Source: Candidatus Altimarinota bacterium
Lineage (GTDB): Bacteria > Patescibacteriota > Gracilibacteria > JAHISY01
Length of the DNA stretch: 63,737 nt
NCBI GenBank assembly: GCA_028690585.1
Contig: JAQVAZ010000002.1
Span: forward strand, 1 to 63,737
Direction: 5' to 3'
Made by a program: the position numbers and the translations under genes. Below, piece after piece: positions 41,915 to 63,694 of this stretch. The notes under the pieces were generated by a model. That model made no database searches. It worked only from the letters and a program-made list of their open reading frames with translations, and had not been told where the DNA came from. Every line of letters begins with the position of its first letter. Position 1 is the first letter of the stretch.

Positions 41915-42478
41915 CTATAGTTGGCTACTCATGATTCCCAGCGCCACCGCAGCAGCTGCTAGCCCCATCGCGAGGCCAATGAATACTCTTGCTTTGAGTT
42001 TCTCCGTATTCAGATTTCCTTTCAGTGTGTGATTCTCTTGCTGGAGAATTTCTTCTTTCTGTTTCCACTCAAGTAGTGGCACGGAATTCTTAAGCTGCGC
42101 TTCCAGCTGCCCCACACGAAAACTCGCAGCTTCGAGTTTCTCTTGCTTCCCTTTCAGCTCCACTGCCGCTTCATGGTAAAGCTTCTCATAAATTTTTTCT
42201 TCTGGGCGATTCTCAACCTGATTCACTGGCTCAGCGGTGGCTTTCTCCGCATTTACTTTTGCTGCTTTGGGTTTCTGCTTCTCAGCTTTCTTGAGTTTCT
42301 CTGCCAAAACTTTGGCAAACTCACTTACTTCTTTCGGATCAAAAAAAACATTCCTGCCATCGGTGCGGTTTTTGATTTTGCCGCGCTTCACATAGCGATC
42401 CAGCGTGCGAGTGGAAATCCCTAGTTTTTCAGCAGCTTCATCGCGAGTGATTGTGTATGAGTTTTTTTGAGTGGACAT
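41915..42478 (-). CDS. Membrane-anchored helix-turn-helix regulator
   Basis: I place the start at ATG 42478 (MSTQKNSYTI); a TTG 24 bp earlier is also in frame. The N-terminal ~60 residues form a MerR/excisionase-like winged HTH (TRDEAAEKLGISTRTLDRYV, KNRTDGRNVFF). A Lys/Glu linker and coiled coil follow, and a C-terminal transmembrane helix (VFIGLAMGLAAAAVALGIM). It would sit on the inner membrane face with its DNA-binding domain in the cytoplasm. Copies of a TGTCYACTC motif lie at its own start and promoter and may be its binding sites. Confidence 0.8.
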   Translation of the reverse strand: MSTQKNSYTITRDEAAEKLGISTRTLDRYVKRGKIKNRTDGRNVFFDPKEVSEFAKVLAEKLKKAEKQKPKAAKVNAEKATAEPVNQVENRPEEKIYEKLYHEAAVELKGKQEKLEAASFRVGQLEAQLKNSVPLLEWKQKEEILQQENHTLKGNLNTEKLKARVFIGLAMGLAAAAVALGIMSSQL

Positions 42479-42545
42479 TTTGAGTAGACAGCGAGTAGAC
42501 AATTCAGATGTGTCTACTCAAAGAATACCACTCGCGGAGGGTGGT
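42471..42545 (-). promoter_or_regulatory. Promoter and TGTCYACTC operator cluster of the HTH gene
   Basis: On the minus strand TTGTTT-N18-TATTCT forms a promoter. Just downstream, GAGTAGACA (plus 42493-42501) and TGTCTACTC (42511-42519) form a perfect 9-bp inverted repeat 9 bp apart. Direct copies follow at 42482-42490 and 42469-42477. Two neighbours are spaced 11 bp. Confidence 0.6.
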
Positions 42546-42569
42546 AAACAAGCAGAGATTGCTGAGGCT

Positions 42570-44720
42570 TTATTTTCTTAGATCTTTCAAAGTATCTTCA
42601 AGAATTTTTTTCTGGGATCCAGCAAGTTTGTGCATCAATTCGTCTTCCCAATGATGTTTATCTTCTGGTTTTGCAAGCAACTTAGTTGCCTCATGTAATT
42701 CTTTTGCTACGGCCTTGACTGTGTCTGCATTGCTATCAGCGCTAAGCTTGCCTGCCAGTTGACTTAAGTCATGTGTAGTAGTTCCACTTACAATCACACG
42801 GTTGGTGCCGTCAGCGTAAACTTTCACAGTATCATTTATGCCAGCGCCTGCAACTGGTGTGCCCGTAGGAGTTGCTGGAGGTGTTGTTGGTGCTGTGGTT
42901 GAAGCGCTTGTTGAGGCTTCATCTTTTTCTTCTATTCTTTTTATAAGGTCTTTAATTTCATTTTTCTTAGAGCCTTCGATGACTCTCGATCTTTCAGCAA
43001 TTTCTTTCAGTGCTGCCAAATATGTTTGATTCGCGTTTACCGGAACACCATATGCTTTGCTGAGTTTGCTTGCTAGATCAGATCCGATAGATCCATTTTC
43101 CATAGTGTTTCGGTTGTTTCCATTAGCGATATCTTTTAGCTTTTCAATCATTATTGAGCCTTTTTTGCTTGCATCTTTTTCTGCAGCATCACTTGTGGCT
43201 GCATCTTTGAGCCTGCTATCAATACCATCTTTGCTTAGCGGGGCTCCTGCAGTCCAACCTTTAGGAAGAAGGTGAGCCATACCCTCTCCCATAGCCTCCT
43301 TGCGGCTTTCGGAAGCAGATTTAATTTTATTGATTGCTGCCATCGGAGCCCCCATCAATTCATTTACGCTACCACCAAAACCAGGAATGATTGGTGCATA
43401 TTTCGCGGTGCTAGCTACTGCACTTACTGCTCCATTTACTTTGCTATGAATGCCTTCAGTGACTTTTCCTGCTATCTCATTTCCCATCTTGATCGCTTCA
43501 TTTGTTCCATACCAAACCACTCCGATACTCGCAGCCCACCAGAGAATCACAGTGAAGTGTTTTGTAAACGTATCCATGGAAACAATCGAAACACCATCGA
43601 GAGTAGAGATGGAGTTATTCCCAAAAATCATTATCATCCCAATCGAAAGGGGGAAAGCTACGAAAACTGGCATAAACGCTGTTTTGATAAAACCCGTTAA
43701 GCTGAAAGTTCCGCTGCCACCATCTGGCATTCCAGGAATCACATCTTTCATCACCATCGCCAAAACTCCGATAGGCATCAGCGGAATCATAATCCACAAA
43801 ACTACCACGCGAATCAAAAAGGCAATAAATAGCATGAAGTAAACCACTCCCACTGCTCCAGCCATGATAACCGAACCGATGCTTCCTACGATGAAAGTTT
43901 GAAAATCTCCAGTAACGGATTTTAGCCACAGTAAATCATCCAACCGTAAGATATTCATCAATAACACCAAAGCAAAGTTTTCCTTAGCTAGTAAGCTCTG
44001 AATTTTTACATTTACACTCGTGGCATTCGATACATTTTTTATCATATTTCCAAATTCACCTACTGCCTTATCTGCAAGTTTTTTATCACTTGCGCCATTC
44101 AGCATTACTTTTTGCACTTCTTTGCTGCATTTTTCTGCTTCCCAAATTCTGCTAGTTTGGAATTCTTTGTAGGTATCCGGGCATGGCACCCCACGAACCA
44201 TCTTCTCTCCTACTACACTCTTCGGAAGCGCGAAAACCGCAGTAGCCAAAACATCTGCAGTGCCAATTATAAATCGCGCGCCAAAGAAGGTGAGATTCAC
44301 TGCTATCAGTGCGATGATGAATTTCGGCAAAATTTTCTTGAGGAAACCTGTGCCGCCACTCTCTCCAATTCCAAAAATTACTCTTACTGCGATTATCAGC
44401 AGCGCAATAATGAAAACAACATTCACAAAGTTGCGCATGATTTCCCAAACTAGATGGAGAGTATCTCCCATTCCAGTATCGAAGATATAGGTGCTGGTCA
44501 TGAGATCTCCCAGCAAAACTGCGATGATAATCGAAAGCAGCGCAATCAAGATGAGGATTATCGAGAATAATCCAGCGAGAGGAGTAAGCCAATTAATCTT
44601 GCTGGCTTCACCTGCAATAGTGGGCTCAACCGCAAAAGCTGGATGCGCTAAAACCAAACACACGATTACTGCTACTAGCAGTATCGGTAGGATTCGGAAT
44701 TTGCGGATAAGTTTAAGCAT
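42570..44720 (-). CDS. Polytopic membrane protein, VirB6/TrbL-like
   Basis: 716 residues with a signal peptide-like start (LAHPAFA), seven or more transmembrane segments in residues 45-430, and a long polar C-terminal domain rich in Ser/Thr/Lys with an Ala/Thr/Pro tract. The layout recalls VirB6/TrbL channel proteins of type IV secretion, and such proteins are common in CPR genomes. No ATPase of such a system is nearby. It is the last gene of a three-gene operon (46641 to 42570), with genes separated by 0-1 bp. Confidence 0.65.
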   Translation of the reverse strand: MLKLIRKFRILPILLVAVIVCLVLAHPAFAVEPTIAGEASKINWLTPLAGLFSIILILIALLSIIIAVLLGDLMTSTYIFDTGMGDTLHLVWEIMRNFVNVVFIIALLIIAVRVIFGIGESGGTGFLKKILPKFIIALIAVNLTFFGARFIIGTADVLATAVFALPKSVVGEKMVRGVPCPDTYKEFQTSRIWEAEKCSKEVQKVMLNGASDKKLADKAVGEFGNMIKNVSNATSVNVKIQSLLAKENFALVLLMNILRLDDLLWLKSVTGDFQTFIVGSIGSVIMAGAVGVVYFMLFIAFLIRVVVLWIMIPLMPIGVLAMVMKDVIPGMPDGGSGTFSLTGFIKTAFMPVFVAFPLSIGMIMIFGNNSISTLDGVSIVSMDTFTKHFTVILWWAASIGVVWYGTNEAIKMGNEIAGKVTEGIHSKVNGAVSAVASTAKYAPIIPGFGGSVNELMGAPMAAINKIKSASESRKEAMGEGMAHLLPKGWTAGAPLSKDGIDSRLKDAATSDAAEKDASKKGSIMIEKLKDIANGNNRNTMENGSIGSDLASKLSKAYGVPVNANQTYLAALKEIAERSRVIEGSKKNEIKDLIKRIEEKDEASTSASTTAPTTPPATPTGTPVAGAGINDTVKVYADGTNRVIVSGTTTHDLSQLAGKLSADSNADTVKAVAKELHEATKLLAKPEDKHHWEDELMHKLAGSQKKILEDTLKDLRK

Positions 44721-44721
44721 T

Positions 44722-46122
44722 TTATTCTTCAGAATTATCTTCGGTTTCTTTATCCTCCTCGAGAATATCCTTAGGGTCCAATTCTAGTTTTTTGCATTTT
44801 ATGAGTAATTCAAAGAGTTTTTTAGATTTTTCATTTTTGATTCCACCCTCGATCTTGTTAAATTTTTGCTTGGGTAAACCAAGCGCTGCTCTGATCTCTT
44901 CGGAATCAATCCAATAAGTAGCATCGCGACTTTTTTGTTCTATTAATTTTCTCAAAGGTTTTTCTGATTTCAAATTTTCGCTGCTTACCAATCCCAACCA
45001 ATTTGCTACCTCAGGATTTTCTGCAGGCAACCCTTTAATTTTTTCCGTGAGGGTTTCTTTTTCATTTTGAAGTGCCTCATCTGTAGGCTTAAGGATATCT
45101 GGATTGTTGTAAGCATAAATTCCAGCCCCTGCTGCTGCTAATCCCAGAAATGCTGGATTTTTGAGAGTATCTGTTCCATTAAGTACTAAGTTTAAACCGA
45201 GAGTAGCGTAAATCCATTTCTCTGCTGCGAATAAAGCTACCCACTTCAATTCTCCATATTTACGAGTGAAGAGATCAAGAGGATTTCCTTTTGTTGCCTC
45301 GATTTGCATGTTTTGCGCAACTATTCTCATCTCTGCGTGTTTCTCGATGAGAAATTTCTCCGGGTTTTTTTCCTCTCCAGCTTTTCTTAGCAACTCCTCA
45401 AAATCTGTGAGCTTTCCAGGATTTTCTTTCTCAAATATATTTCCATATTTTGTACGGATTTCTTCAAATTTAGCGAGCGAAAGTTTTCCATCTCCTACTG
45501 TATCATTCAATACAGTTTGCATGATGTCTACCATGCTATTCGCGCTTCCAGGAGGATTCCCAGCCTCTTGAATATTTTTGGCAACGCTATCTAGATATTC
45601 CTCTGTTAGTTGTGCAACTACCGCTTCTTTTTGTTCTTTCACTTCCGCTGAATCTTTTTCATTTACAGCTGGAGATTTTTTCAATCTCTCATACAGTTTT
45701 TCTCCTTTAGTAAAATTTTCAACTGCAGCTTTTCCGGCTGGAGTGAGATTTAACTCTGCAGCAGAATCATCTCCCAAACTTTCCAATTCGCTTAATCCGA
45801 TAGAAGTTGGGTTACCGTCTTTTGCAGCGATTTCCCTCAGGTTGTCTACTACGCCTTTGCTGCTAACTCCTTTCGCGAAAGCTGTTAGAAAAACAATTTT
45901 CAGCCGACCGAAGCGCGTATCGTATTGCTTTTGTGCCTGTTCGTTTTTTGGTGTTTTATCTTCGAAGTTATCGATACTTCCAGCCAGATTTTCTAGCTCT
46001 TGCTTCATTACTTCATCACTCAAAGTCTCACGCTCTTTTGCAGCGTTTTTTTCTACCTGCTTATACATCTCATTCTTGCCAGGTTTTAGCTCAACGGGAT
46101 TTAGGGTTTCAGGTATAGACAT
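44722..46122 (-). CDS. Hypothetical helical protein with a hydrophobic segment
   Basis: 466 residues, Glu/Lys/Leu-rich and mostly helical, with one or two hydrophobic stretches near residues 315-350 (WIYATLGLNLVLNG, AFLGLAAAGAGIYAYNN). No known motif. It starts directly after the PH-like membrane gene and stops 1 bp before the VirB6-like gene, so the three are co-translated. An accessory role to that membrane protein is inferred from position only. Confidence 0.7.
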   Translation of the reverse strand: MSIPETLNPVELKPGKNEMYKQVEKNAAKERETLSDEVMKQELENLAGSIDNFEDKTPKNEQAQKQYDTRFGRLKIVFLTAFAKGVSSKGVVDNLREIAAKDGNPTSIGLSELESLGDDSAAELNLTPAGKAAVENFTKGEKLYERLKKSPAVNEKDSAEVKEQKEAVVAQLTEEYLDSVAKNIQEAGNPPGSANSMVDIMQTVLNDTVGDGKLSLAKFEEIRTKYGNIFEKENPGKLTDFEELLRKAGEEKNPEKFLIEKHAEMRIVAQNMQIEATKGNPLDLFTRKYGELKWVALFAAEKWIYATLGLNLVLNGTDTLKNPAFLGLAAAGAGIYAYNNPDILKPTDEALQNEKETLTEKIKGLPAENPEVANWLGLVSSENLKSEKPLRKLIEQKSRDATYWIDSEEIRAALGLPKQKFNKIEGGIKNEKSKKLFELLIKCKKLELDPKDILEEDKETEDNSEE

Positions 46123-46641
46123 TTAGAGTTTCAAGCTTCTTACGAGTAAATCTGTAAACTCTTCATCGCGTTTCACTTCCTTGATTTTCTCTCCGATGAT
46201 TGCGCGAAGATTCTCTGGAGTTTGCCCGAAGATGTGGATAGTAATTACTGAGTTAAATTTGCGGTGAATCTTTAGCTTCAAATCTGCCACGAAAGGTGGT
46301 TTGTAAATAAACCAATAATTCTCGATTTCATCGAATGGATAAAATTCATTTCCGTAGCGAATGCCATTCTCGCTGATCGAAGTCTCAATCAGCTTCGCTT
46401 CCTCGTGATGCAGCAACCAATACACTGCAAGGAAAAGCACAAAGGCGATTGTGAGAGTGATGGTATGCGTGAGGATTCCGAGGAGAATTATTCCCAGTGA
46501 AACAATGCCAGCGCCGAGATACCACATGGCGCTGCGCTGATAATTCACAAATTCTGCAGAAGGAAAGCTATAACGAATCATCCCGCTACGCAGCTGCAGA
46601 GTAGTTTCTTTTTCGTGGTGTGGTTGGTTTTTGGCTTCCAA
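46123..46641 (-). CDS. Small two-TM membrane protein with PH-like domain
   Basis: 172 residues. A polar N terminus, two adjacent transmembrane helices (YLGAGIVSLGIILLGIL, TLTIAFVLFLAVYWLL), then a beta-rich domain (ENGIRYGNEFYPFDEIENYW) resembling bacterial PH-like domains found behind paired helices. First gene of the three-gene operon; its stop abuts the next ATG. Function unknown. Confidence 0.7.
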   Translation of the reverse strand: MEAKNQPHHEKETTLQLRSGMIRYSFPSAEFVNYQRSAMWYLGAGIVSLGIILLGILTHTITLTIAFVLFLAVYWLLHHEEAKLIETSISENGIRYGNEFYPFDEIENYWFIYKPPFVADLKLKIHRKFNSVITIHIFGQTPENLRAIIGEKIKEVKRDEEFTDLLVRSLKL

Positions 46642-46759
46642 GTTTATTTTTAAATCCGAGAATTTTAGCAGAATTTGGCTTTTTAATCAATAAATAAGGG
46701 TATTTCGTGCAATTTAGATGTTATTTTGTCAAGCAGTGGTTTTTCTTCCGAGAAGTCGC

Positions 46760-46765
46760 TAGAAT
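46760..46765 (+). promoter_or_regulatory. -10 element of carB
   Basis: CGCTAGAAT ends 7 bp before ATG 46773. This both supports that start and predicts a leaderless or near-leaderless mRNA. Confidence 0.5.
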
Positions 46766-46772
46766 CCCGCAG

Positions 46773-49700
46773 ATGCCGATGAAGTCGCTGCCAAAAAAAG
46801 TTCTCGTCTTAGGTTCTGGAGCCCTCAAAATTGGGGAGGCTGGGGAATTCGATTACTCTGGCAGCCAAGCGATTAAGGCGCTGAAAGAAGAGGGAATCAA
46901 AACGATTCTCGTGAATCCGAATATTGCCACCAACCAAACCTCCCGCGGAATCGCGGATAAGGTTTATTTCTTGCCGGTGACTCCCCGCTTCGTCGAGAGA
47001 ATCATCGAAAAAGAAAAACCCGACGGAGTATTACTCGCTTTTGGTGGGCAAACTGCACTCAATTGCGGAGTGGAATTGGAAAAGCTGGGAGTTTTCAAGA
47101 AGCATGGAGTTACCGTGCTAGGCACTCAAGTCTCAGCGATTCGCGCTACCGAAGATCGAGAATTATTTGTAAAAGAATTAAATAAAATCGGAGTGATTAC
47201 TGCGCGCGCAGTCGCAGTGGAAAACATCGAGAAAGGAATTGCTGCTGCGAAGAAGGTAGGTTTCCCAGTTATCGTGAGGGCTGCTTACGCTTTGGGTGGT
47301 AAAGGCAGCGGCTTCGCGCATAACGATGAAGAGTTGGTGCAATTGATGGAGATAGCCTTCTCGGCTTCACCACAAGTTTTGATTGAAGAAGATTTACGCG
47401 GTTGGAAAGAGATTGAGTATGAGGTGGTGAGAGATAAAGCGAATACCTGCCTCACAGTTTGTAACATGGAGAATTTCGATCCACTCGGAATTCACACTGG
47501 CGAATCTATCGTGGTGGCGCCAAGCCAGACTCTGAATAATTTTGAATATCACAAGCTGCGTGAGATTGGTATTAAAGTGATTCAGCATCTCGGAATCGTA
47601 GGTGAATGCAATATTCAATATGCGCTGAATCCAAATCCTGCAGATCCAAATTCGCTCGATTATCGTGTAATTGAGGTGAATGCGCGTTTATCACGCAGTA
47701 GCGCTTTAGCAAGTAAAGCCACAGGTTATCCACTCGCACATGTGGCGGCGAAACTCGCTTTGGGTTACCGCCTCGATGAAGTTCCGAATGCAGTAACTGG
47801 CAAAACCACTGCGTGTTTTGAGCCAGCGCTGGATTATCTCGTGCTAAAAGTTCCACGCTGGGATCTTCAAAAATTCCGCAAAGTTACTTCTCACATCGGT
47901 AGCGAGATGAAGAGTGTGGGAGAAGTGATGAGTATCGGCCGCAGCTTCGAAGAAGTTTTGCAGAAAGCTCTGCGCATGTTGCAGGTGGGAGCTTATGGAT
48001 TCACACACGCGGGCTACAAATTTGAAAATCTCGAAAAAGAAATTCGCAATCCATCACCCAATCGCATCTTCGCGCTGGCGCGCGCTTTGCGAGAGGGTTA
48101 CACAGTGGAGAAGCTCAATCAGATTTCCGGAATCGATAAATGGTTTCTCGAGAAGTGTAAGAATATTGTCGACTTCGAGCAAAAAGTTCTCAAAGTAAAG
48201 AAGGATAAAGTTGGTAAAGAGGAGATAGCTGCTGCGAAGAAGCTTGGTTTCTCAGATGCGCAGATTGGTTGGAAGATGGGAAAACACGAGTTGGAAGTTC
48301 GCAAGTTGCGCAAGCAATTCAAAATCCTTCCTGCGATAAAGAAGATCGATACTTTTGCTGCGGAGTTTCCAGCCAGAACCAATTACCTTTACCTCACTTA
48401 CCACGGAGATGTTTCCGACGAAGTTATTACCACGAAGAAACCGAAAGCGATTGTGCTCGGTAGCGGTGCTTACTGTATCGGTAGCAGCGTGGAATTCGAT
48501 TGGTGCTGTGTAAGCGCAGTAAACACACTTGCGCGCAACGGTTATGAAACCGTGATGATCAACTATAATCCAGAAACAGTTTCCACGGATTACGATAGCT
48601 GCGATCAACTTTACTTCGATGAGCTGAGCGTGGAGAGAGTTTTGGATATTATCGATTTCGTGAAACCAGAAGGTGTGGTGGTTTCTACTGGTGGGCAGAT
48701 TCCCAATAATCTCGTCGGAAAATTAGCCAAGGAAAAAGTAAAAATCTTCGGCACTTCTCCAGTGGATATCGACCGCGCGGAATCCCGCCAGAAATTTTCT
48801 GCGCTACTAGATTCACTCGGTATCGATCAACCACTCTGGAAAGAATTCGTGCAAGAAGCCGAAGCGCTCAAATTCGCTGAAAAAGTTGGTTACCCTGTTT
48901 TAGTCAGGCCGAGTTACGTATTGTCTGGAGCAGCCATGAGTGTAGCTTTTACCCCAGCGCAGCTACGCAACTATCTCGAGAAAGCTACAAATGTTTCCAC
49001 GGAAGCTCCAGTGGTGATTACCAAATTCGAAGAAGGTGCGAAGGAAATCGATTTCGATGGAGTGGCTTACAAAGGTAAGCTCACTATCTTCGCAGTCAGT
49101 GAGCATGTGGAAAATGCGGGAGTGCATTCAGGTGATGCCACTCTTGTCTTGCCTCCACAAAAAACTTACTTCGAAACAATCAAGCGTGTGAAGAAGATTG
49201 CGAAGCAACTCGCGGAAGCGCTACATATCACTGGCCCTTTTAATATCCAATTTCTCGCGAAGAATAATCGTGTGGCCGTTATCGAATTAAACTTACGCGC
49301 TTCACGCAGCTTCCCATTTGTTTCCAAAACTTCCGGCCACAACTTCATCGAGATTGCTATCGAAGGTATGCTCGGCAAAGTGAAATCTCCAGAGTGGCGC
49401 AAGCAGCATTACCAAACGCTCGATATCGATCATGTAGGCGTGAAGGCTGCGCAATTCTCTTTCTCACGATTGAAAGGTGCAGATCCAACTGTAGGTGTGG
49501 AGATGGCCTCCACTGGTGAAGTAGCTTGCTTCGGCATGGATTTATATGAGGCTTTCCTCAAGGCGCAGATTGCAGTGGGTTTCCGTATTCCGAAGAAAGG
49601 AATTCTCATCTCCACTGGTCCGCTTACTTCCAAGGTTGGTTTCCTTTCATCCGCGAAGCGTTTGATTCGCATGGGTTACAAACTTTTCGCAACTCCTGGC

Positions 49701-52163: not shown

Positions 52164-53336
52164 ATGAACAGAAATCAAGAACATCTAAATTATATAGACA
52201 CGGTTAACCTTGGTTCTTATTATACGCCGGAGATTATCGTTGATTTGGCCTACTCTATTTTACAAAAAAATGTTCCGAGCATTAAAGATTTTACAATTTT
52301 AGATTCGTCTTGTGGTTATGGTTCATTTTTAGCAAAAAAAAATATTGCAAAAAGACTAGTTGGTGCTGATATCGACGAAAAAGCTATTTTTGAAGCAAAA
52401 AAAAGAATCAATGGTGTGGATTTTACCTGCCAAAATTCACTTGTAAATGTTTGCCGCAAAAATCTGGTTATTAAAAATGATGAAAAGCTTATAGCTATAG
52501 GCAATCCGCCATACAACGATACAACCTCCATAATCCGTAATTCTATAAAAGATGTTTCTGTCCAGGATAAAATTGATTCTGATATAAAAACCAGAGATTT
52601 AGGAATGTCGTTTTTGCTTTCTTATAACAAGGTTCAAGCGGATTATGTTTGCGTTTTGCATCCACTGTCTTATCTAATCAAGAAAGCAAATTTTGCCCTG
52701 CTCTCAAGATTTGCCAAAAACTATAAATTAATTGACGGAATAATTATAAGCAGTCATGAATTTTCTAATACCTCTCGTGGAATGGCCTTCCCAATTTTAG
52801 TAGCTCTTTACAGGAGAGACCAAAATGGAATGACTTACGATTATGTTCAAAATTATCAATTTAAAGTAAAAGATGATGGATTTTTTCGTTTAAAAGATTT
52901 TGATACAATAATTAATCATGTTCAAAAGTATCCAAATAAAAAATATTTAAATGGAAATGATAAACCGGTCGCGAGATTCTGGACATTGAGAGACATAAAT
53001 GCGCTTAAGCGAAACCAGACTTTTATTAATTCTGATACTTACAATACGGTTTATGTGTTGATGGAGAATCTTCCCTATTATTGTTATATTGATGTATTCA
53101 AACAATATGCAGATAAAATGCCGTATTTTATCGGAAACTGTGATGTAATAATTGATAATGAAAAATTTAATGAAATAAAAGAATGTTTTGTCGCTCATAG
53201 TGTCCACACAAATCCGATTTTAAAAAACAAGTTTAAGTTTAGAGAAATTCCTGACGCTAAACTAAAAATAGATAATTATTTTAAAGAATTGTTAGGATCT
53301 AAATTAGGAGAAAAATATGCCAAAAATTTTAATTAA
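52164..53336 (+). CDS. Adenine-specific DNA methyltransferase of a type II R-M system
   Basis: 390 residues. SAM-binding motif I is DSSCGYGSFL near residue 50, with GADIDEKAIFEAKKR after it; the catalytic motif IV is GNPPYND near residue 112. This NPPY signature identifies N6-adenine methylation. The SYYTPEIIVD opening is common to gamma-class enzymes. Target recognition should lie in the C-terminal half. The gene is visibly AT-rich and overlaps the nuclease gene by 20 bp. It protects host DNA from that nuclease; the recognition site cannot be read, though GTAC would be expected if the partner is PabI-like. Confidence 0.88.
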   Translation: MNRNQEHLNYIDTVNLGSYYTPEIIVDLAYSILQKNVPSIKDFTILDSSCGYGSFLAKKNIAKRLVGADIDEKAIFEAKKRINGVDFTCQNSLVNVCRKNLVIKNDEKLIAIGNPPYNDTTSIIRNSIKDVSVQDKIDSDIKTRDLGMSFLLSYNKVQADYVCVLHPLSYLIKKANFALLSRFAKNYKLIDGIIISSHEFSNTSRGMAFPILVALYRRDQNGMTYDYVQNYQFKVKDDGFFRLKDFDTIINHVQKYPNKKYLNGNDKPVARFWTLRDINALKRNQTFINSDTYNTVYVLMENLPYYCYIDVFKQYADKMPYFIGNCDVIIDNEKFNEIKECFVAHSVHTNPILKNKFKFREIPDAKLKIDNYFKELLGSKLGEKYAKNFN

Positions 53337-54078
53337 AGAACGAGAACATAAAATTGAAGTACCAATTTTATTAACTGCTACTAATGGGAAAATTCGCGTT
53401 AAGAATCGCTCGATTGTAAATGAATATGGAACGCCGGTTGCAGTTAGGCGAGATGGGTTTGCTTTAAGTAATTATGTTGAATGGCAGATCGGTTACGATG
53501 TTGTTAAGAGGGAAATTGAAAAACTCGCTGAGTCATCATTGCCAGAGACCGAATTCACTGGCACAAATGGGAAAGTTAAGGCACTTTATGAATTGTCAGA
53601 GTATATTTGGTATTTTTATAAATGGGACATTATATCCAGAGAAGAGCTGGAAAGCGTTATCACTTATCTTAATTCGATACAAGACTGTAATTTGATTGGT
53701 AATAATTCTGAATTGCAAATTGATCGTAGTCACCCAATAGCAAAAAATATAAATGGGTTTGATTTTGAATATACTCAAGTTAAATATCCGCTTTTGATTC
53801 ACAAATTTAAGGGATACGAGATAGTTACTGAAATAAAAATTACTGAAAAACAATATGCAGTCGGCACGCAACCGATGTTATATTTATGTTTCCCAATCAC
53901 AGAATTAAAAGCAAAAACCAGTTTAGTTGGACGAACTGCCGAAACAAAAGAAATCGCCCATTTTGAAATCGCGGAAAATAACATTAAAGTATTTTTAGAA
54001 ATGCTAAAAATGTTTGGCACTCTATCTAATAGCCATAAGCATGATATCTTGCAAATTATAAATACAATCTTGGCATAA
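53317..54078 (+). CDS. Restriction enzyme, PabI-like (candidate restriction DNA glycosylase)
   Basis: 253 residues, encoded 20 bp inside the methyltransferase end, so the pair is one R-M operon. It lacks PD-ExK or HNH patterns by eye. Instead it carries Glu55-x4-Tyr60 (EWQIGY) and His240-x2-Asp243 (HKHD) 10-13 residues from its end, with Arg27/Arg31 in front. The same spacing holds for the known active residues of Pyrococcus PabI (Glu63, Tyr68, His211, Asp214, Arg32), which excises adenine from GTAC. The match rests on residue spacing and operon position, not an alignment. AT-rich composition marks it as acquired. Confidence 0.6.
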   Translation: MPKILIKEREHKIEVPILLTATNGKIRVKNRSIVNEYGTPVAVRRDGFALSNYVEWQIGYDVVKREIEKLAESSLPETEFTGTNGKVKALYELSEYIWYFYKWDIISREELESVITYLNSIQDCNLIGNNSELQIDRSHPIAKNINGFDFEYTQVKYPLLIHKFKGYEIVTEIKITEKQYAVGTQPMLYLCFPITELKAKTSLVGRTAETKEIAHFEIAENNIKVFLEMLKMFGTLSNSHKHDILQIINTILA

Positions 54079-56070: not shown

Positions 56071-56086
56071 ATATGCAACATATTTC

Positions 56087-56797: not shown

Positions 56798-56835
56798 CAA
56801 TGGCTTGCCGGCCGTAGCCCAAAGGGCGAAGGCTG
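56798..56835 (-). repeat. tRNA-trailing GC-rich repeat (second copy)
   Basis: On the minus strand the CCA of tRNA-Arg(CCU) is followed by GCCTTCGCCCTTTGGGC and TACGGCCGGC, matching 27316-27353 with one or two changes. Confidence 0.7.
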
Positions 56836-56908: not shown

Positions 56909-56972
56909 TTTTATCTAATTCTAAACTACCGCCTCCTCTGAGGCAGTTGGAAAAACCAAAAACCTCAGGAGA

Positions 56973-57545
56973 TTATTTTGGCCTGATTACTTCGAAATTC
57001 ATTCTATCTACTGGCAAATCACTTTTCTTTACCTTCCAAGTATCTTTTGGTTCTAATTCTCCGAAACCAAGGAGTTTACCGAAATCGATTTCCTCTCCCG
57101 CTGCATAATTCATTGGCACAACTGCGCGAGGCTCAATCGCTTCAATCATTTGTTTGATTTGTTTATCATTTAGCGCAGCATTTTTCCCCACACTCACGAA
57201 GAGAATATCTACATTACCAATCTTCTCTTCCTCAGATTCCAGCAGCATCTCACCTACTCCATCGAGATGCGCCAGAGAGATATCTTCGGCAATCACTTTT
57301 ACCACACGGCTTTTCTTTTCTTTTCCTACTGGGATAATCATCACACTCACGCCTTTGGCTTCGTATTCTCCTGGCCAGCTAAAAACCACTTGAGATTTAT
57401 TTACCTTCAAGGATTTCTCATCTGCTTCCGCAGCGGTGATGATGATATCTTCACCATCGACTTTTTCCGGCGGGAGGCAAAGCGCGATATTCGCTTCACC
57501 AGCTTTCACTACGAAACCGATTCCAGTCTTATAATTAATTTGCAT
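56973..57545 (-). CDS. Degenerate metallo-beta-lactamase-fold protein
   Basis: 190 residues with strand pattern of the UPF0173/MBL family (FSWPGEYEAKGVSVMIIP, ISLAHLDGVGEML, NVDILFVSVG, EPRAVVPMNY). The usual HxHxDH zinc motif is missing; only the later part of the site is recognisable. It is probably not an active zinc hydrolase, although CPR genomes carry many such short members. CGCTAAACT lies 8 bp upstream of the ATG (plus 57554-57559). Confidence 0.75.
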   Translation of the reverse strand: MQINYKTGIGFVVKAGEANIALCLPPEKVDGEDIIITAAEADEKSLKVNKSQVVFSWPGEYEAKGVSVMIIPVGKEKKSRVVKVIAEDISLAHLDGVGEMLLESEEEKIGNVDILFVSVGKNAALNDKQIKQMIEAIEPRAVVPMNYAAGEEIDFGKLLGFGELEPKDTWKVKKSDLPVDRMNFEVIRPK

Positions 57546-57651
57546 CGCGGAAGAGTTTAGCGTTTTGGAGAAGTTTTCTCAACCAGTTAGGGGATTCTTG
57601 CAGCAATTTTGGCTACAACTGCCTCAGCCTTTCTCCTACTCTCTGAGATGC

Positions 57652-57657
57652 TAAAAT
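57652..57657 (+). promoter_or_regulatory. -10 element of the DHQ synthase II gene
   Basis: TGCTAAAAT ends 23 bp before ATG 57681. Confidence 0.45.
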
Positions 57658-57680
57658 CTTCTGGTAGCTAATAATTGTTT

Positions 57681-58679
57681 ATGAAAAAAATCTTTTGGGT
57701 GAGGCTTGCCAAGTGGAATAAATCTTTTGTCGCTGCAGCGCTGGAGGCTGGCGCGGATGCGATAGTTTTACCAAAAGGTTTTAGCGCCAAAGCCAAAGAG
57801 TTGGGTTTAATCACCACCATCGCAGTCGATGGAGATTTGAAACTTGGCAAAGATGTAAAAGAATTCACGATTACCTCCAAAGAAGTTGAAAATGATGTGG
57901 TGAAAGAGAAAGGCAAGATTCCGGTGATTATCAAAAATAAAGATTGGAGTATCATCCCGCTGGAGAATTTAATTTCCAAAACTTCCAATTTAATTCAAAC
58001 CGTGGCGGATGCGAAGAAAGCGAAGCTCGCGCTGACTACGATGGAGGTTGGTAGTGATGGTGTGTGTTTAGAAGCTACCAGTGAGGCGGAGATTGCTGCC
58101 ACGGGGAAAGTTATCCGTGAAGCCAACAACGAGAAGCTGCAGCTTGTAAACGCCAAAATTGAAGCGATTGAAGAAGTAGGTGTGGCGGATAGAGTTTGTG
58201 TTGATACCACAGCGCTGCTAAAACCAGGCGAGGGGATTCTCGCGGGTGATTCTTCTTCCGCGATGTTTCTCGTTTTCAATGAAAATGTTTTGAGTCCTTA
58301 CTGCGATCCGCGGCCTTTCCGCGTGAATGTCGGCGCGGTGCATGCATACATTCGCTTACCAGAAAATAAAACTGGCTACCTCAGTGAAATCAAAGCGGGG
58401 AAACAGATTCTCATCGTAGATCAAAAAGGCAATACCTTCCCTCTCGCAGTCGGCAGAGTGAAAATCGAAAAGCGCCCGATGCTGCATATCACTGGAAAAG
58501 TAGGGGATAAAAACATTTCTCTCGTGATGCAAAATGCCGAAACAATTCGCCTCACGCTGCCAAACGGGAAACCGATTTCCGTTACGAAACTGAAGAAAGG
58601 CGATGAAGTTCTCGCTTTCACAGAAGATGCTGGTAGGCATTTCGGGGTGAAGGTGAAGGAAACGATAACGGAAAGATAG
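57681..58679 (+). CDS. 3-dehydroquinate synthase II (archaeal type)
   Basis: 332 residues from ATG 57681 (a TTG two codons earlier is also in frame). It matches the archaeal AroB'/MJ1249 family: KKIFWVRLAKWNKSF, TTMEVGSDGVCLE, DRVCVDTTALLKPGEGILAG, PFRVNVGAVHAYI, GRVKIEKRPM. This enzyme uses NAD to convert the sugar-amino precursor ADTH to 3-dehydroquinate in a route that bypasses DAHP. It is rare outside archaea. A partner ADTH synthase is not in the window. Confidence 0.93.
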   Translation: MKKIFWVRLAKWNKSFVAAALEAGADAIVLPKGFSAKAKELGLITTIAVDGDLKLGKDVKEFTITSKEVENDVVKEKGKIPVIIKNKDWSIIPLENLISKTSNLIQTVADAKKAKLALTTMEVGSDGVCLEATSEAEIAATGKVIREANNEKLQLVNAKIEAIEEVGVADRVCVDTTALLKPGEGILAGDSSSAMFLVFNENVLSPYCDPRPFRVNVGAVHAYIRLPENKTGYLSEIKAGKQILIVDQKGNTFPLAVGRVKIEKRPMLHITGKVGDKNISLVMQNAETIRLTLPNGKPISVTKLKKGDEVLAFTEDAGRHFGVKVKETITER

Positions 58680-58682
58680 GAA

Positions 58683-58750
58683 GGAATAAAGAATATGGAA
58701 TAAAGCAAAACTTTCCTAGCTGTCATCCCCGCGCAGGCGGGGATCCAGAG
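58683..58750. repeat. Composite of dispersed repeats (families B and A)
   Basis: Family B (GGAATAAAGAATATGGAATA, from 58683) is followed by a family-A copy (58721-58750, TGTCATCCCCGC then GCAGGCGGGGATCC). Same order as at 38046. Confidence 0.8.
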
Positions 58751-58765
58751 AAGAGAGAAATTTGC

Positions 58766-58771
58766 TAAAAT
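58766..58771 (+). promoter_or_regulatory. -10 element of the lipoprotein gene
   Basis: Extended -10 TGCTAAAAT ends 7 bp before ATG 58779, so the transcript should start at the ATG itself. Confidence 0.55.
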
Positions 58772-58778
58772 CATTGTG

Positions 58779-59255
58779 ATGAAAAAACTTGTTTTAATTC
58801 TCGCAACAGTTTTGCTTCTTGGCTGTGAAGCGAATGTGGGAGAAGAGCTGAAGCCTGAAGAAAATAAAAATGAAGCAATAGCGGATAATTTTGAGAAAAA
58901 TCAAGAATGCGCAAAATTGGCTCCAGCAATAGAAAAAAGATTAAAAGATTTCAGAGAGGAAAAGTTAAAAAGCGGGGAATCACTTGTTTGGCTACCAACT
59001 TTTCAGGAAATTTTTTATAGCCCAAAAACAAACTCCTGTTTGTATATAGATAATGTGCAAATGGGAAAAGAAGATCCTTTCACAATGAAGCGATTAGTTG
59101 ATGTTTCAGATGGTGTTGCAGTTGATCCAGTTGACGATATGAGCTGTATGTATATTTCTAACCGATTTAAATACAATGAAATTGTTGGGGATGAGAAATT
59201 TAATAGTGATTGCGAAGAGTTTGATAGAAAAATTGAAGAAGAATACAAGCGCTAG
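58779..59255 (+). CDS. Small lipoprotein
   Basis: 158 residues. Lipobox VLLLGC puts Cys at residue 16. The mature part is acidic and helical, with five further cysteines including ECAK, NSCLY, MSCMY and DCEEF. Start ATG 58779 is preferred over the overlapping GTG. It ends 4 bp inside the convergent ATP-grasp gene. Function unknown. Confidence 0.75.
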   Translation: MKKLVLILATVLLLGCEANVGEELKPEENKNEAIADNFEKNQECAKLAPAIEKRLKDFREEKLKSGESLVWLPTFQEIFYSPKTNSCLYIDNVQMGKEDPFTMKRLVDVSDGVAVDPVDDMSCMYISNRFKYNEIVGDEKFNSDCEEFDRKIEEEYKR

Positions 59256-60286
59256 CCAACCGAATGTTTTGCATTCAAATGCTTCAACTCAAATCTCCCC
59301 TCTTTCACGCTGCTGATTTTGGGTGGGTTCCACTCCCCTACTTTTTCTCCCAGCATTTCGAGGATGTGGATTGTAAGCAGTGGTAATTCCCCTGCTTGCG
59401 CTTGCAGTTTCGTGATGAAACCGAGGTTACTCAGCATGCGTGGATTACATTCAATCAAATAAAGTTTTCCGCTTCTCTCATCTACGAGTAAATCGATTCC
59501 CGCGATTCCGCGGTAACCGCTTCCGCGCAAAGCTTCACCGATTTTTTCTCCCAAAGCAGCAATTGCTTTTAGAATTGGAGGAGAAAGTTTCTGCGCAATT
59601 CCCAAATCAATTCCACCAGTGCCACCCGGCAGTGGATTCAACCGCGCATCACCAGTGATTTGGTAAAACGGTTGGGTTTGGTAAGTTTGTTTTTCGCCCA
59701 CGCAGAGATCCAGCGAGAAAGTTGGAAGCTTCATCAGTGGAGTGATTTTCACTACCCACTTCCCTATCAGCTTCTTCAAGCCTTCCAATTCCTTCGCGCT
59801 TCTCACGAAGAAAGTGGATTCTCCAGCGTGGCCTCGGCGGGTTTGGATTACAACTGGCTGAGTGAAAATCAGCGTATTCAATTCCATCACTCGAGTTGGC
59901 AGTAGCGGCAGCTGATGTTTCTCACAAAATTTTACGAAGTGAATCTTATCCTCGATTTCATTCACGAAGCGCGCTTCTGGCATCAGAAGTTTCCAGCCTT
60001 TCGTTTTGGCTAGCTTCTCTACCTTGGGAAGATTCTTAAAAACTAGTAGGCGACTTCCCCGCTTCAGCAGGTTTATAACCAGTGGGGACTCGAGTAGTTC
60101 AGAAGTTTTCTTCGCCTTTGGTAGCTTCACAAAAGTGATATCTATTCCCCGCTTCTGCGCTTTGCGCAAGTATGGAGTGGGTTTATTCGTAATAATTTTC
60201 AGATTCTCCCAAGCGAATTCTAACCCCTCAATCTTCGCTGAGTCTGGAGAAACGAGGTAAACGGTTTTGCGAGGAAGTTTAGGCAT
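59252..60286 (-). CDS. ATP-grasp ligase
   Basis: 344 residues. The central and C-terminal parts show ATP-grasp signatures: VVIQTRRGHAGESTFFV, GKWVVKITPLM, GYRGIAGIDLLVDERSGKLYLIECNPRM (shown as the IECNPR motif that binds Mg-ATP). These enzymes join a carboxylate to an amine or thiol through an acyl phosphate. It overlaps the upstream PLP-enzyme gene by 8 bp and sits in a cluster with a LysW-like carrier and a Mur ligase. Substrates are unknown. Confidence 0.85.
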   Translation of the reverse strand: MPKLPRKTVYLVSPDSAKIEGLEFAWENLKIITNKPTPYLRKAQKRGIDITFVKLPKAKKTSELLESPLVINLLKRGSRLLVFKNLPKVEKLAKTKGWKLLMPEARFVNEIEDKIHFVKFCEKHQLPLLPTRVMELNTLIFTQPVVIQTRRGHAGESTFFVRSAKELEGLKKLIGKWVVKITPLMKLPTFSLDLCVGEKQTYQTQPFYQITGDARLNPLPGGTGGIDLGIAQKLSPPILKAIAALGEKIGEALRGSGYRGIAGIDLLVDERSGKLYLIECNPRMLSNLGFITKLQAQAGELPLLTIHILEMLGEKVGEWNPPKISSVKEGRFELKHLNAKHSVG

Positions 60287-61235
60287 ATTGCGCTACTATT
60301 CTATCAACATCCGCGAAAATTTCCGCTCTTTCGAACTTAGTTAGATCCACTTCCCTGTCTTCCCAGAGTTTCCCCGTGGAGACAACCACGCTTTCGCCAG
60401 CGGGTTTTATTTTGAGATAAGCGGCGATGCTGGCAACACTCTCATTACTGATTTGAGTAGACAACTGAGTAGACAAACTATGTTGTCGAGTGGACAAAAT
60501 TTCAGCATCTGTCGAGTGGACAATCTCAAAACTGTCTACTGGATTGTCTACTGGGTGTCCACTCAACTCCCCTGCTAGTTTTCCATCATTTACCACCGCA
60601 TAGAAGCGTGGTAGCTGCTTGATCTCACCCATATCGAGAAGTTTTTTATAAGCCTTCCTCATTCCTTGGAGGCTGGAGAAGCTGGTGGCAAAAGAGAAAA
60701 TGTTTTGAATCGCGGGGTTTTGCTCGAATAATTCAAAGCCGAGAGTCTCGAATCCGATAACAGCTGCTGGATCTTGTGATGGCCGGAGGTCGGGGAGTCC
60801 GAAATGCTTAATCGCGTATTTAGCTAATCTAAGCGGTTTACTTGAAATAATTGGAATGATGTTTTTTGTCTGAATCGCTGCGAGTTTTTCTGCTGGAGTT
60901 TTGTCTGAAAGAAAAGTGAAAAGCTTCACTCTGGCTGCTTTTGCATAATATGAGGCTGAAATGGCTGCATTTCCACTACTGCTTAAAACAGCTTTGTCTA
61001 TTCCTTTACTTTTCAAAAAGCTTAATTGGTAGATAAGGCTGCGGAATTTATGCGAGTGAGTTGGAGATAAATCCTCTCGCTTAAGCCAAAAATCCCCAAC
61101 TTTTTCTAACGGAGTGGGTTTTATTTGTAAACTCTCGATTTGGCAATCTGGAGAAATGTTTCCTAGTAACTTCTCATAGCGCCAAAAGCCCTGTTTTTGT
61201 AGGCTGACGCGATTTTGGAAACTGGCTGTTGACAT
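60279..61235 (-). CDS. PLP-dependent enzyme, fold type II (threonine-synthase/ACC-deaminase-like), altered active loop
   Basis: 318 residues. The PLP-lysine region is KREDLSPTHSHKFRS, and the cofactor-phosphate neighbourhood is SSSGNAAISASYY. The usual Gly-rich phosphate loop near residue 180 is replaced by a Ser/Phe-rich ATSFSSLQG, so activity is uncertain. Residues ~224-260 are encoded by seven TGTCYACTC-type iterons in both orientations (STRQHSLSTQLSTQISNE). The downstream ATP-grasp gene overlaps by 8 bp. Confidence 0.8.
   Translation of the reverse strand: MSTASFQNRVSLQKQGFWRYEKLLGNISPDCQIESLQIKPTPLEKVGDFWLKREDLSPTHSHKFRSLIYQLSFLKSKGIDKAVLSSSGNAAISASYYAKAARVKLFTFLSDKTPAEKLAAIQTKNIIPIISSKPLRLAKYAIKHFGLPDLRPSQDPAAVIGFETLGFELFEQNPAIQNIFSFATSFSSLQGMRKAYKKLLDMGEIKQLPRFYAVVNDGKLAGELSGHPVDNPVDSFEIVHSTDAEILSTRQHSLSTQLSTQISNESVASIAAYLKIKPAGESVVVSTGKLWEDREVDLTKFERAEIFADVDRIVAQYA
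60455..60564. repeat. TGTCYACTC iteron cluster inside the PLP-enzyme gene
   Basis: Seven core copies (GTAGACA, GTGGACA or complements) start at 60457, 60469, 60490, 60516, 60533, 60545 and 60556, in both orientations. Adjacent ones are often 11-12 bp apart. Confidence 0.85.
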
Positions 61236-61263
61236 TGCATTTTAGATGCCTATAATCCCAGCT

Positions 61264-61416
61264 ATGTTAACGATTACCTGCCCAGATTGCCAACACAAAA
61301 TCGAGCATGAGCCAAACGAAGCTGGCGAAGTGGTTGAATGCGAAAATTGTGGTTGTGAGATCTTAATCACGAGTCTCGATCCGCTCAAATTTGAGCCTGT
61401 AGAAGAGGAAAAGTAA
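61264..61416 (+). CDS. LysW-like zinc-ribbon carrier protein, 50 aa
   Basis: ATG 61264 to TAA 61416 encodes 50 residues starting MLTITCPDCQHKIEHEP, with a second pair CENCGCE and then LDPLKFEPVEEEK. This is the pattern of LysW/ArgW amino-group carriers (CPxC, CxxC, LDPLxLEP). The canonical C terminus EDWGE, whose last Glu carries the amino acid, is missing; the protein ends EEEK. It lies on the opposite strand between the PLP-enzyme and Mur-ligase genes. It may be a variant carrier or only a structural relative. Confidence 0.75.
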   Translation: MLTITCPDCQHKIEHEPNEAGEVVECENCGCEILITSLDPLKFEPVEEEK

Positions 61417-61418
61417 TG

Positions 61419-61497
61419 GGTTCCCCATTGTTGCCTGCGTCGCTCGGTTAATAGCAGCAAGCTGCTCTTACCTCGCTATCCTCGGCAATAACTAATA
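61419..61497. repeat. Imperfect palindromic element between convergent genes
   Basis: ATTGTTGCC near 61427 and GGCAATAAC near 61483 are outer arms. Inside, AGCAGC-AA-GCTGCT forms a strong hairpin. No T-run, so a REP-like element rather than a plain terminator. Confidence 0.5.
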
Positions 61498-61499
61498 AC

Positions 61500-62990
61500 T
61501 TAAGTAAGTTTTCTAACAAACAACTCAAAACCTTTCCCACCGAGTGGGATTTTTCCATTGAAGTAACAAAACCAAGCAGCAGCAGGAGAAAGTAAAACAT
61601 ACTCCCCTTTCTGCGCATTTTTTGCAGCTTTTATTACTGCTTGCTGGAGATTATCTATCATCTCGAAGCCAAGTTTTAGCTTTCGCAACTCCCCTGCGAT
61701 TGCTTCTCCAGCTGGAGATTTAAGTAAAATTACCTTAGCTTTTTGCTGCTGAATCTCTCTTGCTAGCAGATTGAATTGCATTCCTTTTGGGTCTCCTCCT
61801 GCGATGAGGTGGATGCTACCGACTGGGAAGCTACGCAATGCTGCGATAGCGGAATCAGGAGAAGTGGAGGCAGAATCATTGATAAACTTCACTCCCCGCT
61901 TCTGCGCCACTAATTCCAAGCGCTGTGGGATTCCTTTGAAGTTAGTGATAACTTTTTTGATTATCTCGAAACTGACTCCAGCTGCATGGGTAGCAGCGAC
62001 TGCGGCCAACACATTAGACAGATTGTGGACACCGAGGAGCTGGATTTTGTCCACTGGACACACTACTTTGTCTACTCGCTGTCCACTCGCTGTCCACTCA
62101 GTTGAGTAGACAATGTTTCCGCTGTCTACTCGAACTCCTGTCTCGAGCTGTTTGTCTACTGAATAGGGTAGGGGAGTCGCTTTCGTCTGTTTCAGAAAGC
62201 TAAGTGTGGCTTGGTTGTCAGCATTTAGCACGGCGATATCTCCTTTCTGCTGCTTCGCGATGAGGCTATATTTTCCAGCTTTATAACCTTTCATCCCATC
62301 AGAATATTCGTTGAGATGGTTGTCAGTTACATTGGTTATCACTCCTATGTTTGGCGCGCGGCCAAGATCGAATTTCAGCTGCCGATTGGACACTTCTATC
62401 ACCAGCCAGTCACTTTTGCGCCATTTGGAGAGACAATCTAGGATTTGGACATTACGCCTGTCGTTGCCAGTAAACCAGACTTTGTCTACTCGCTGTCCAC
62501 TCGATTTGTCATGTTGTCTACTAGCTGTCGACATGATTTCGGAGATGAGTTTCGTAGTTGTCGACTTGCCATTTGTGCCAGTCACTGCGAGGATTTTTCC
62601 AGGGAAGAGATTGAAGTAGAGTTGGGTGATGGTGGCGAAGCGCTTCGGATGAGTGGCAAAAATTTCGCGCAGCTTCTCATTCGGAGAGTAAGCTTCCCAG
62701 TTTTGGGAGACAAAAATCAAATCGGCTGCCTCAATTCCCGCTAGATAATTTTTGCCAAAGTTGGTTTTGTTTTCAAATGCTTGGAGTTTTTTCAGCATTT
62801 TTTCCCGCTTGGCAGGGGATAATCCCATATGCGCGGAAGCAAAATTCTTTGCAAAACGAGGCTTCTCAGCGAAATCATGCGCGGTAAAAGGGATTTTTTT
62901 GCCTGCCAAAAACAGCGTAACCGCAGCGCCTTCCGTGCCGCTAAGACCAACGATGTGGATATTGCGCGCTTTGGTTATTTTTTCTAGCAT
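61500..62990 (-). CDS. MurD-like Mur ligase
   Basis: 496 residues. A Rossmann-like N-terminal domain (ARNIHIVGLSGTEGAA), the ATP loop AVTGTNGKSTTTKLI near residue 125, NVTDNHLNEYSD, VHNLSNVLAAVAATHAAG, the FINDSASTSPDSAIAAL motif and an altered ending SPAAAWFCYFNGK. Closest in style to MurD (adds D-Glu). Two segments (residues ~142-169 and ~277-314) are encoded by in-frame iteron copies. It overlaps the NlpC/P60 gene by 7 bp. Confidence 0.88.
   Translation of the reverse strand: MLEKITKARNIHIVGLSGTEGAAVTLFLAGKKIPFTAHDFAEKPRFAKNFASAHMGLSPAKREKMLKKLQAFENKTNFGKNYLAGIEAADLIFVSQNWEAYSPNEKLREIFATHPKRFATITQLYFNLFPGKILAVTGTNGKSTTTKLISEIMSTASRQHDKSSGQRVDKVWFTGNDRRNVQILDCLSKWRKSDWLVIEVSNRQLKFDLGRAPNIGVITNVTDNHLNEYSDGMKGYKAGKYSLIAKQQKGDIAVLNADNQATLSFLKQTKATPLPYSVDKQLETGVRVDSGNIVYSTEWTASGQRVDKVVCPVDKIQLLGVHNLSNVLAAVAATHAAGVSFEIIKKVITNFKGIPQRLELVAQKRGVKFINDSASTSPDSAIAALRSFPVGSIHLIAGGDPKGMQFNLLAREIQQQKAKVILLKSPAGEAIAGELRKLKLGFEMIDNLQQAVIKAAKNAQKGEYVLLSPAAAWFCYFNGKIPLGGKGFELFVRKLT
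62046..62161. repeat. TGTCYACTC iteron cluster in the Mur-ligase gene (C-terminal half)
   Basis: Seven core copies start at 62048, 62069, 62080, 62091, 62106, 62123 and 62153. Three are spaced exactly 11 bp. Both orientations occur. Confidence 0.85.
62481..62567. repeat. TGTCYACTC iteron cluster in the Mur-ligase gene (N-terminal half)
   Basis: Cores at 62483, 62494, 62515, plus TGTCGAC variants at 62526 and 62559. Pairs 62483/62494 and 62515/62526 are 11 bp apart. Confidence 0.75.
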
Positions 62991-63694
62991 TTTTTCTTGT
63001 CAGTAGGGGAGTGAAATAATCTTCTACTTCCAGTGAAACGATAGCGTTTTTTCAGGTTTTCTAAACTCTCGTGTGTCAGCCCGAGATTGTCTAGACAGAA
63101 GTGCCAAACCTCATTTTCAAACCAAATACCCGTGTGAGATTTACCACTTTTCTTGTGGACAAAAAAGAGGGTGTCGAGTGGACAAAATGCGTTTTTCTTG
63201 ACTGCGATGCCGCATTTTTTTTGATCTTTGGAATTGCGTGGAAGGAGAATTCCTAAAACCATCAGCATAATTCCTTGAGTAAACGCGGAGCAATCCATTC
63301 CTTTCTCTGTATTTCCTCCCCATATATAAGGAATAGATTTTTGTGATTGTAGAATCTTCTTAATCTTGCCGGAAGAGGGGAGTTTCGCGCTTATCGTTTT
63401 CCCTCGCAGGAAATACTTCACGCCTTTCCAATAATCCGCTGTTTTTATAGGCTTCGCATCTTCTTTTCTTACCCAACCAAAGGTGTCGTCCACCATCCTT
63501 ATAAGGTAGTAGCCATTTTTTTCTTCCAAAAGCTGGAAAGGATAATAATACTTACTGGTTTGGGTTTGGCGGTTGCGGGTAATCGCTGCGCTGCTAAGCT
63601 TCCCATTTACCACGATTGGCTTCCGCAAAACTTCCACCACTACCTTATTACCAACACCCCACCTTATAGTTGCGCGATTTTTTTGAGTAGACAA
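62984..63694 (-). CDS. NlpC/P60 (C40) peptidase with SH3-like region
   Basis: The C-terminal ~120 residues hold the catalytic Cys in YIWGGNTEKGMDCSAFTQ and the catalytic His in KSHTGIWF. The N-terminal part contains SH3b-like strands (KYYYPFQLLEEKNGYYLIRMVDD, shown in part: GYYLIRMVDDTFGWVRKED). It should cut peptidoglycan peptides. Start is uncertain: TTG 63694 lies inside an iteron copy and almost touches AAGGAG. The first residues MSTQKN are the same as in the HTH gene at 42478. No signal peptide is visible from this start. Overlaps the Mur-ligase start by 7 bp. Confidence 0.8.
   Translation of the reverse strand: MSTQKNRATIRWGVGNKVVVEVLRKPIVVNGKLSSAAITRNRQTQTSKYYYPFQLLEEKNGYYLIRMVDDTFGWVRKEDAKPIKTADYWKGVKYFLRGKTISAKLPSSGKIKKILQSQKSIPYIWGGNTEKGMDCSAFTQGIMLMVLGILLPRNSKDQKKCGIAVKKNAFCPLDTLFFVHKKSGKSHTGIWFENEVWHFCLDNLGLTHESLENLKKRYRFTGSRRLFHSPTDKKKC

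Follow-up and report, generated by a model that had tools for sequence, protein, structure and literature searches.

The DNA analysed here, referred to as the window, is a 63,737-nucleotide contig (JAQVAZ010000002.1) of Candidatus Altimarinota bacterium, and forms contig C9 of a Gracilibacteria genome of 1.05 Mb. It holds dense arrays of a short motif, TGTCYACTC, together with the gene of a 187-residue helix-turn-helix (HTH) protein that ends in a membrane helix (41915–42478, minus strand). The motif copies are clustered, are spaced by turns of the DNA helix, pay no heed to the reading frame of the genes that contain them, and co-localise with the orthologous HTH gene in other families of the class. 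From the comparative evidence presented below, the HTH protein very probably binds the motif. The broader reading towards which we cautiously lean is that a tail-anchored, RacA-like protein and a movable array of its sites serve to anchor or partition the chromosome.

Within the window, TGTCYACTC occurs 19 times where 0.42 copies are expected, and the highest count in any dinucleotide shuffle was three. The whole genome, in 48 contigs, contains 21 copies. Eighteen of these are found at two places (four at 42469–42519 and 14 at 60455–63693), a stray copy is at 5510 and the last two belong to other contigs; the reversed control pattern occurs nine times genome-wide. The core TGTCNAC is distributed in a similar manner, with 4 and 25 copies at the two places versus 7 in the other 60 kb of the window. 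The original prediction, made from the letters of the window, had described at least 24 copies of a 9-bp iteron, nearly all at these two places. The confinement is borne out and the motif is not equally common throughout the genome, while the count is reached when near variants are included but not with exact copies. The description as a 9-bp iteron gives way to the consensus T-TGTC-Y-AC-T-N-G, a TTGTCYACTNG half-site which is arranged as direct repeats or as the palindrome TTGTC-YACTR-GACAA. A perfect inverted repeat that had been noticed at the HTH gene is indeed present, with GAGTAGACA (42493–42501) and TGTCTACTC (42511–42519) separated by a 9-bp spacer.

Most copies are inside coding sequence and leave the frame open, as had been claimed. 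The array at the HTH gene consists of four copies over the start codon and upstream of it (42469–42519), including the inverted repeat. The gene of a pyridoxal phosphate (PLP)-dependent enzyme with a PALP, threonine-synthase-like fold (60279–61235, minus strand) hosts seven copies at 60455–60564 that are read as STQ, STR, VDN, VDS and SGH segments. Two arrays are hosted by the gene of MurD (61500–62990, minus strand; TIGR01087 above cut-off). Eight copies encode VDK, SGQ and EWT segments in loop 2 (62025–62161), and a further array in loop 1 follows the P-loop helix (62483–62567), its final copy falling in the conserved GKST codons of the P-loop itself. The gene of an NlpC/P60 peptidoglycan hydrolase (62984–63694, minus strand) has two copies at 63155–63186 and another at its presumed start codon (63685–63693, minus strand), where relatives have the remainder of the array; the choice of this TTG as the start is a guess, and the contig ends 44 bp from it. 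An ATP-grasp gene (59252–60286, minus strand), the fourth of the conserved cluster, has no copies. Both proteins that begin with MSTQKN do so by way of a motif copy, read as ATG-TCC-ACT-CAA-AAA-AAC in the HTH gene and as TTG-TCT-ACT-CAA-AAA-AAT in the NlpC gene. Adjoining the HTH gene, and syntenic in the relative G002, is a large membrane protein (42570–44720 and 44722–46122) that resembles VirB6/TrbL by eye and has no Pfam match.

When five genomes of the window's family were pooled, the distances between motif copies on the same strand were 10–12, 20–23, 31–33, 41–43, 51–53 and 61–63 bp. The phase coherence at 10.3 bp was R = 0.74, whereas none of 2000 jittered controls exceeded 0.31; the coherence weakened past 150 bp. 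The 11-bp spacing between neighbours that was first reported is correct in places and belongs to this broader helical series. Arrays outside of the window's family are also phased, at about 11 bp (R = 0.54 versus a null maximum of 0.27). No 3-bp periodicity was present in the spacing of the pooled five genomes, though nearly all copies are in open reading frames (ORFs). One 7-mer is read in all three frames, and its frame and strand decide whether it gives VDK, SGQ, WT, STQ or STR. The copies are found mainly in the two variable MurD loops, a loop of the PLP enzyme and the NlpC protein, and also in conserved codons, namely GKST and, in relatives, KWTK. Because of the helical spacing, the absent 3-bp periodicity, the multiple frames and the use of conserved codons, the pattern of the sequences indicates that selection acts on the DNA and favors sites along one face of the helix. 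Protein loops would thus have taken up the arrays under selection for the DNA sequence and not for the peptide. The sites are phased at approximately 10.3–11 bp; cooperative binding of the BldC type, to direct repeats about one turn apart, is putative in the present case.

Relatives in genus g2 of the window's family have the same gene order as the window, QueH – NlpC – MurD – PLP – ATP-grasp. In four g2 species the NlpC-MurD-PLP locus contains 24–34 copies of TGTCNAC (with the two contigs of G005 counted together), and G004, which is 85% complete, is without the locus. Phased pairs in the genomes of the window's family are found only at this locus and, in the window's own genome (G000), at the HTH start. 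Over 288 genomes of the class, the palindrome TTGTCNACTNGACAA forms clusters in the window's family alone and at this locus alone; in other genomes and places it occurs as single copies, at the frequency expected by chance. In the sister family f6 the NlpC-MurD-PLP gene cluster is present with no motif there, and an alignment places neither of the inserted loops in the sister-family MurD. MurD orthologues without the inserts, which the original prediction had proposed to look for, therefore exist, and the same protein segments were not seen to arise from unrelated DNA. Other repeat-like segments are found in the same protein loops as the arrays, namely LPAGRQ from ctgcctgccggcaggcagg and SLVTKSA.../ESxAT-EG. 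Contigs end in or beside arrays at window position 63737, at the end of C8 in G005, and at the end of C3 and the start of C5 in G198, perhaps due to repeats or to strain variation in array length. The G198 array is a 44-bp tandem repeat. A generic scan for other clustered 7-mers returned two cases that were set aside, one in G022 from a tandem repeat of a protein and one in G002 from a simple tandem repeat.

Inserts in variable loops that differ in length between species, next to other repeat-like segments and at points where several contigs break, might be expected of selfish short palindromes. Such elements, like the repetitive extragenic palindromes (REP) or the Rickettsia palindromic elements (RPE), would be amplified locally, tolerated in protein loops and needed by no protein. 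REP and RPE are dispersed, however, while the present copies keep to a single region per genome in addition to the HTH start, with 18 of 21 at two places. The spacing is helically phased although the spacer sequence varies, and in other families independent arrays are again found alongside the same HTH gene. Selfish amplification is considered a most improbable explanation.

An orthologue of the HTH gene was identified by profile search in 173 of 241 genomes of the class, usually as a single copy. Initially, the HTH protein was doubted as the binder because its orthologues in genus g2 have no array at the gene or its promoter; other families revived this reading. In G022, a sister-family genome of which 1.04 Mb was examined, no other cluster of TGTC[CTG]AC in the contig is as dense as the one upstream of the HTH orthologue. 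Upstream of 30 HTH orthologues, TGTCNAC has a density of 5.3/kb versus 0.63/kb for the remaining sequence of those loci. In a set of 37 HTH loci, the first 400 bp upstream carry 8.5/kb and the gene itself 4.2/kb, compared with 1.1/kb from 400 to 1500 bp upstream and 0.21/kb downstream. Some of the copies in the gene are at the conserved codons for RT(V/L)DRY and could be driven by the protein; most are elsewhere. Outside of the window's family, 31 of 111 phased pairs are within 1.5 kb of the HTH gene versus 0.33 expected, with 15 genomes contributing; a p-value for this comparison is merely indicative because the pairs of one array are not independent. The earlier guess of motif binding by the membrane-anchored HTH protein, made from a single promoter, is supported by this density of the core upstream of and inside orthologous genes, and we regard binding to a TGTCNAC-type motif as very probable on comparative grounds. 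Binding by a MraZ-like protein was considered, in view of the repeat boxes of about 10 bp of MraZ, and set aside once the link to the HTH protein emerged. In families f10, f14 and f22, TGTCNAC is scarce or absent around the HTH orthologues, several of which contain TGA codons in frame; the motif or the site of the array may be different there.

The address of the array differs from family to family. Families f4, f6, f18, f23, f25, f26 and f27 have it in the HTH gene and in the sequence upstream. In the window's family it is in the NlpC-MurD-PLP genes, 18–21 kb from the HTH gene, with G000 having arrays at both places. In G045 (f15), the HTH locus is without an array and 11 copies are found in a glycosyltransferase-like ORF (assigned by eye) in which they encode KTVDKIVDNVDKSVDKTVDTVDK; the steps of 12, 9, 12, 12 and 9 bp are a codon-compatible approach to one helical turn. 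In G134 (f14), 30 copies extend over 16 kb and span pepA, comF, murB-like and dinG-like genes with local steps of 9, 11 and 12 bp. The original prediction had linked the motif to a Mur-ligase cluster. As a regulon this link does not hold, because other families place their arrays at the HTH gene, within a glycosyltransferase or around murB. Wall genes therefore appear to be one location of the array and not a target that it needs.

The principal alternative makes the HTH protein a transcription factor tethered to the membrane, which represses its own gene through sites in the promoter and early coding sequence and, in the window's family, would also control the NlpC-MurD-PLP-ATP-grasp operon by coating it, the arrays being its operators. 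It would account for sites at the HTH promoter in many families and for an array that covers a compact set of wall-related genes, and it has a precedent in BldC, a MerR-like protein that binds direct repeats as cooperative multimers (PMC5859096). However, up to 19 copies, many of them in gene bodies, far exceed the needs of an operator. In genus g2, about 30 copies are present at the MurD locus but the HTH promoter has none; the array is therefore conserved and autoregulation is not. The arrays of f15 and f14, which lie in a glycosyltransferase or across pepA, comF, murB and dinG-like genes, have no operon in common. A regulator of this kind is judged unlikely. Persistence of the array through changes of address is more readily expected of an anchor or centromere than of an operator, with the other families thinly sampled.

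The TTGTCCAC sites resemble the actinobacterial DnaA box, and the arrays could in principle be a replication element, either an oriC or DnaA-titrating locus or the iterons of an initiator. In the window's family dnaN is approximately 4 kb from the HTH gene, and no TTATCCACA cluster is near dnaA in the contigs examined; the dnaA regions of G002, G000 and G001 have neither an exact TTATCCACA box nor a cluster of near matches. In contrast, the C-terminal domain of DnaA is ordinary, the palindromic arrangement is not DnaA-like, and the HTH protein is without the initiator domain of an iteron replicon. The arrays also track the HTH gene and not dnaA; in G022, dnaA is at 159 kb and the HTH gene at 709 kb, with dnaN 172 kb from the latter. 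A role in replication is thus highly improbable. Of separate interest is the class relative G102, whose complete 998,424-bp contig, sampled along its length, has a GC skew of about -0.3 all round with no change of sign. The third-position skew is -0.64 in plus-strand genes and +0.62 in minus-strand genes and, because it flips sign with the gene strand, the skew is linked to the DNA strand and not to the genes. This suggests that G102 replication is unidirectional. A similar case has been reported for Microgenomates in a paper that describes Gracilibacteria as normal (PMC7143001).

The AlphaFold2 model of the HTH protein presents a confident HTH domain (predicted local distance difference test, pLDDT, of about 85–93), a disordered linker (residues 65–86) and a long helix (88–182) of predicted coiled-coil character. 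A hydrophobic C-terminal helix of approximately 20 residues, a putative membrane anchor, is found in all 36 orthologues checked. A Foldseek search against the PDB identified RacA bound to DNA first (5i44), Xis and BldC next, and then GlnR, TraN and the pSK1 Par centromere complex.

Of the known systems, RacA of Bacillus subtilis is the best fold match. Like RacA, the protein has an N-terminal MerR-like winged HTH domain (Pfam HTH_17/MerR, AlphaFold2, Foldseek) followed by a coiled coil, and many chromosomal sites. The ram sites bound by RacA are located for the most part in a region of 250 kb to the left of oriC, and DivIVA brings RacA to the cell pole (PMC4949633); the site is GC-rich and is bound by a symmetric dimer (PMC4949633, PMC5859096). 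In contrast to that sporulation-specific, DivIVA-dependent protein, whose coiled coil has no membrane helix, the present protein carries a tail anchor of its own in each of the 36 orthologues, and TTGTCYACT occurs in dense phased arrays. BldC, like Xis, shares the small MerR-like domain and is a good fold match. It forms cooperative head-to-tail multimers on a variable number of direct repeats with 9 bp per protomer (PMC5859096). However, BldC is a stand-alone winged HTH of 68 residues without a coiled coil or membrane anchor, whereas the present protein has 187 residues with both, and the motif also occurs as palindromic pairs and in dozens of copies inside genes.

Plasmid partition systems of types Ib, II and III (ParR-parC, TubR-tubC, omega-parS) and the single-protein pSK1 Par, whose DNA-binding domain is among the fold matches, have a short array of direct or inverted repeats beside the gene of the centromere binder, which often represses that gene from the array (PMC5016525). 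The same proximity of array and binder gene is seen in the seven families listed above but not in genus g2. Unlike the plasmid systems, the array is chromosomal, class-wide, movable and set in coding sequence, the protein is tail-anchored, and no cytomotive nucleoside triphosphatase (NTPase) is recognised nearby. By eye, none of the partners ParA, ParM or TubZ was recognised among the ORFs around the HTH gene in G000 and G002, a genome-wide search being outside of this inspection. With ParB-parS there is a resemblance in having a cluster of sites in one chromosomal region with some sites inside genes; the protein family and the site are different. ParABS membership was rejected on the basis that no ParB_N match was found in the five g2 genomes, out of six window-family genomes searched, and that no canonical parS, within two mismatches, was found in the window's family. 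A regular-expression look at parts of G022 and G102, made without a positive control, found no ParB-parS either. G000 encodes a sole ParB_N-domain protein (C8, 7219–8478) that is probably not the chromosomal ParB because its neighbors are methylase, recombinase and phage-like genes. By the features tested, the HTH protein is not a member of the RacA, BldC or ParABS families; by analogy, it probably works like RacA or like a single-protein partition system.

A mechanism can be proposed in which the motif copies are the binding sites of the tail-anchored HTH protein. Its MerR-like domain would bind TTGTCYACT half-sites one helical turn apart, in direct repeats or in the TTGTC-N5-GACAA palindrome, and cooperative assembly of the protein along a single face of the DNA is probable. 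With its coiled coil and C-terminal helix, the protein would then hold the nucleoprotein complex at the cytoplasmic membrane, with the array, at about one array region per genome, acting as a centromere or chromosome-anchor site. The ancestral address of the array may be the HTH gene itself, in its promoter and the 5' part of its coding sequence, from which the array of the window's family would have moved or expanded into the NlpC-MurD-PLP genes. An anchoring role for protein and array is plausible, and anchoring or partition is the best single explanation because of the tail anchor, the size of the array, its location in coding sequence, its mobility and the missing ParB-parS.

Several observations weigh against anchoring and partition. 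The Foldseek E-value for RacA is weak (0.02), as is usual for a domain of 50 residues, and the NCBIfam RacA model NF009649, while spanning the HTH and coiled coil (residues 22–155), matches with an E-value of 0.007 and 16.4 bits versus a cut-off of 265. Sites at the HTH promoter are equally expected of an autoregulator. The ParB search covered only the six genomes of the window's family, and with G004 and G005 being 71–85% complete, the negatives there are weak. The GC skew, weak in the window's family and uniform in G102, does not place the origin and shows no proximity of the array to it. Finally, the orthologues of f10, f22 and most of f9, f16 and f21 have no array within the examined stretch; either the motif differs in these families or the array lies unfound.

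Elsewhere in the window, a low-GC island (52164–54078) encodes a probable DNA methyltransferase and a partner gene and is restriction-modification-like.

No prior report of such a system was found in a partial literature search. The arrays would provide a clear case in which DNA-binding sites dictate protein sequence, since the inserts in MurD, the PLP enzyme, the glycosyltransferase and the gene of the binder itself are best explained as translated binding sites. This reading is relevant to anyone interpreting 'VDK/SGQ' segments in proteins. The means by which ultra-small, minimal bacteria that lack ParB-parS place and segregate their chromosomes are not settled, and here there is one concrete protein, one concrete DNA site and one predicted outcome for the cell to consider. 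Tentatively, many Gracilibacteria, which seem to be without ParB-parS where this was tested, may rely on a one-protein system of segregation or anchoring, in which a single tail-anchored MerR-like protein acts on a movable, coding-embedded, helically phased array as a chromosomal centromere that relocates between genes over evolution.

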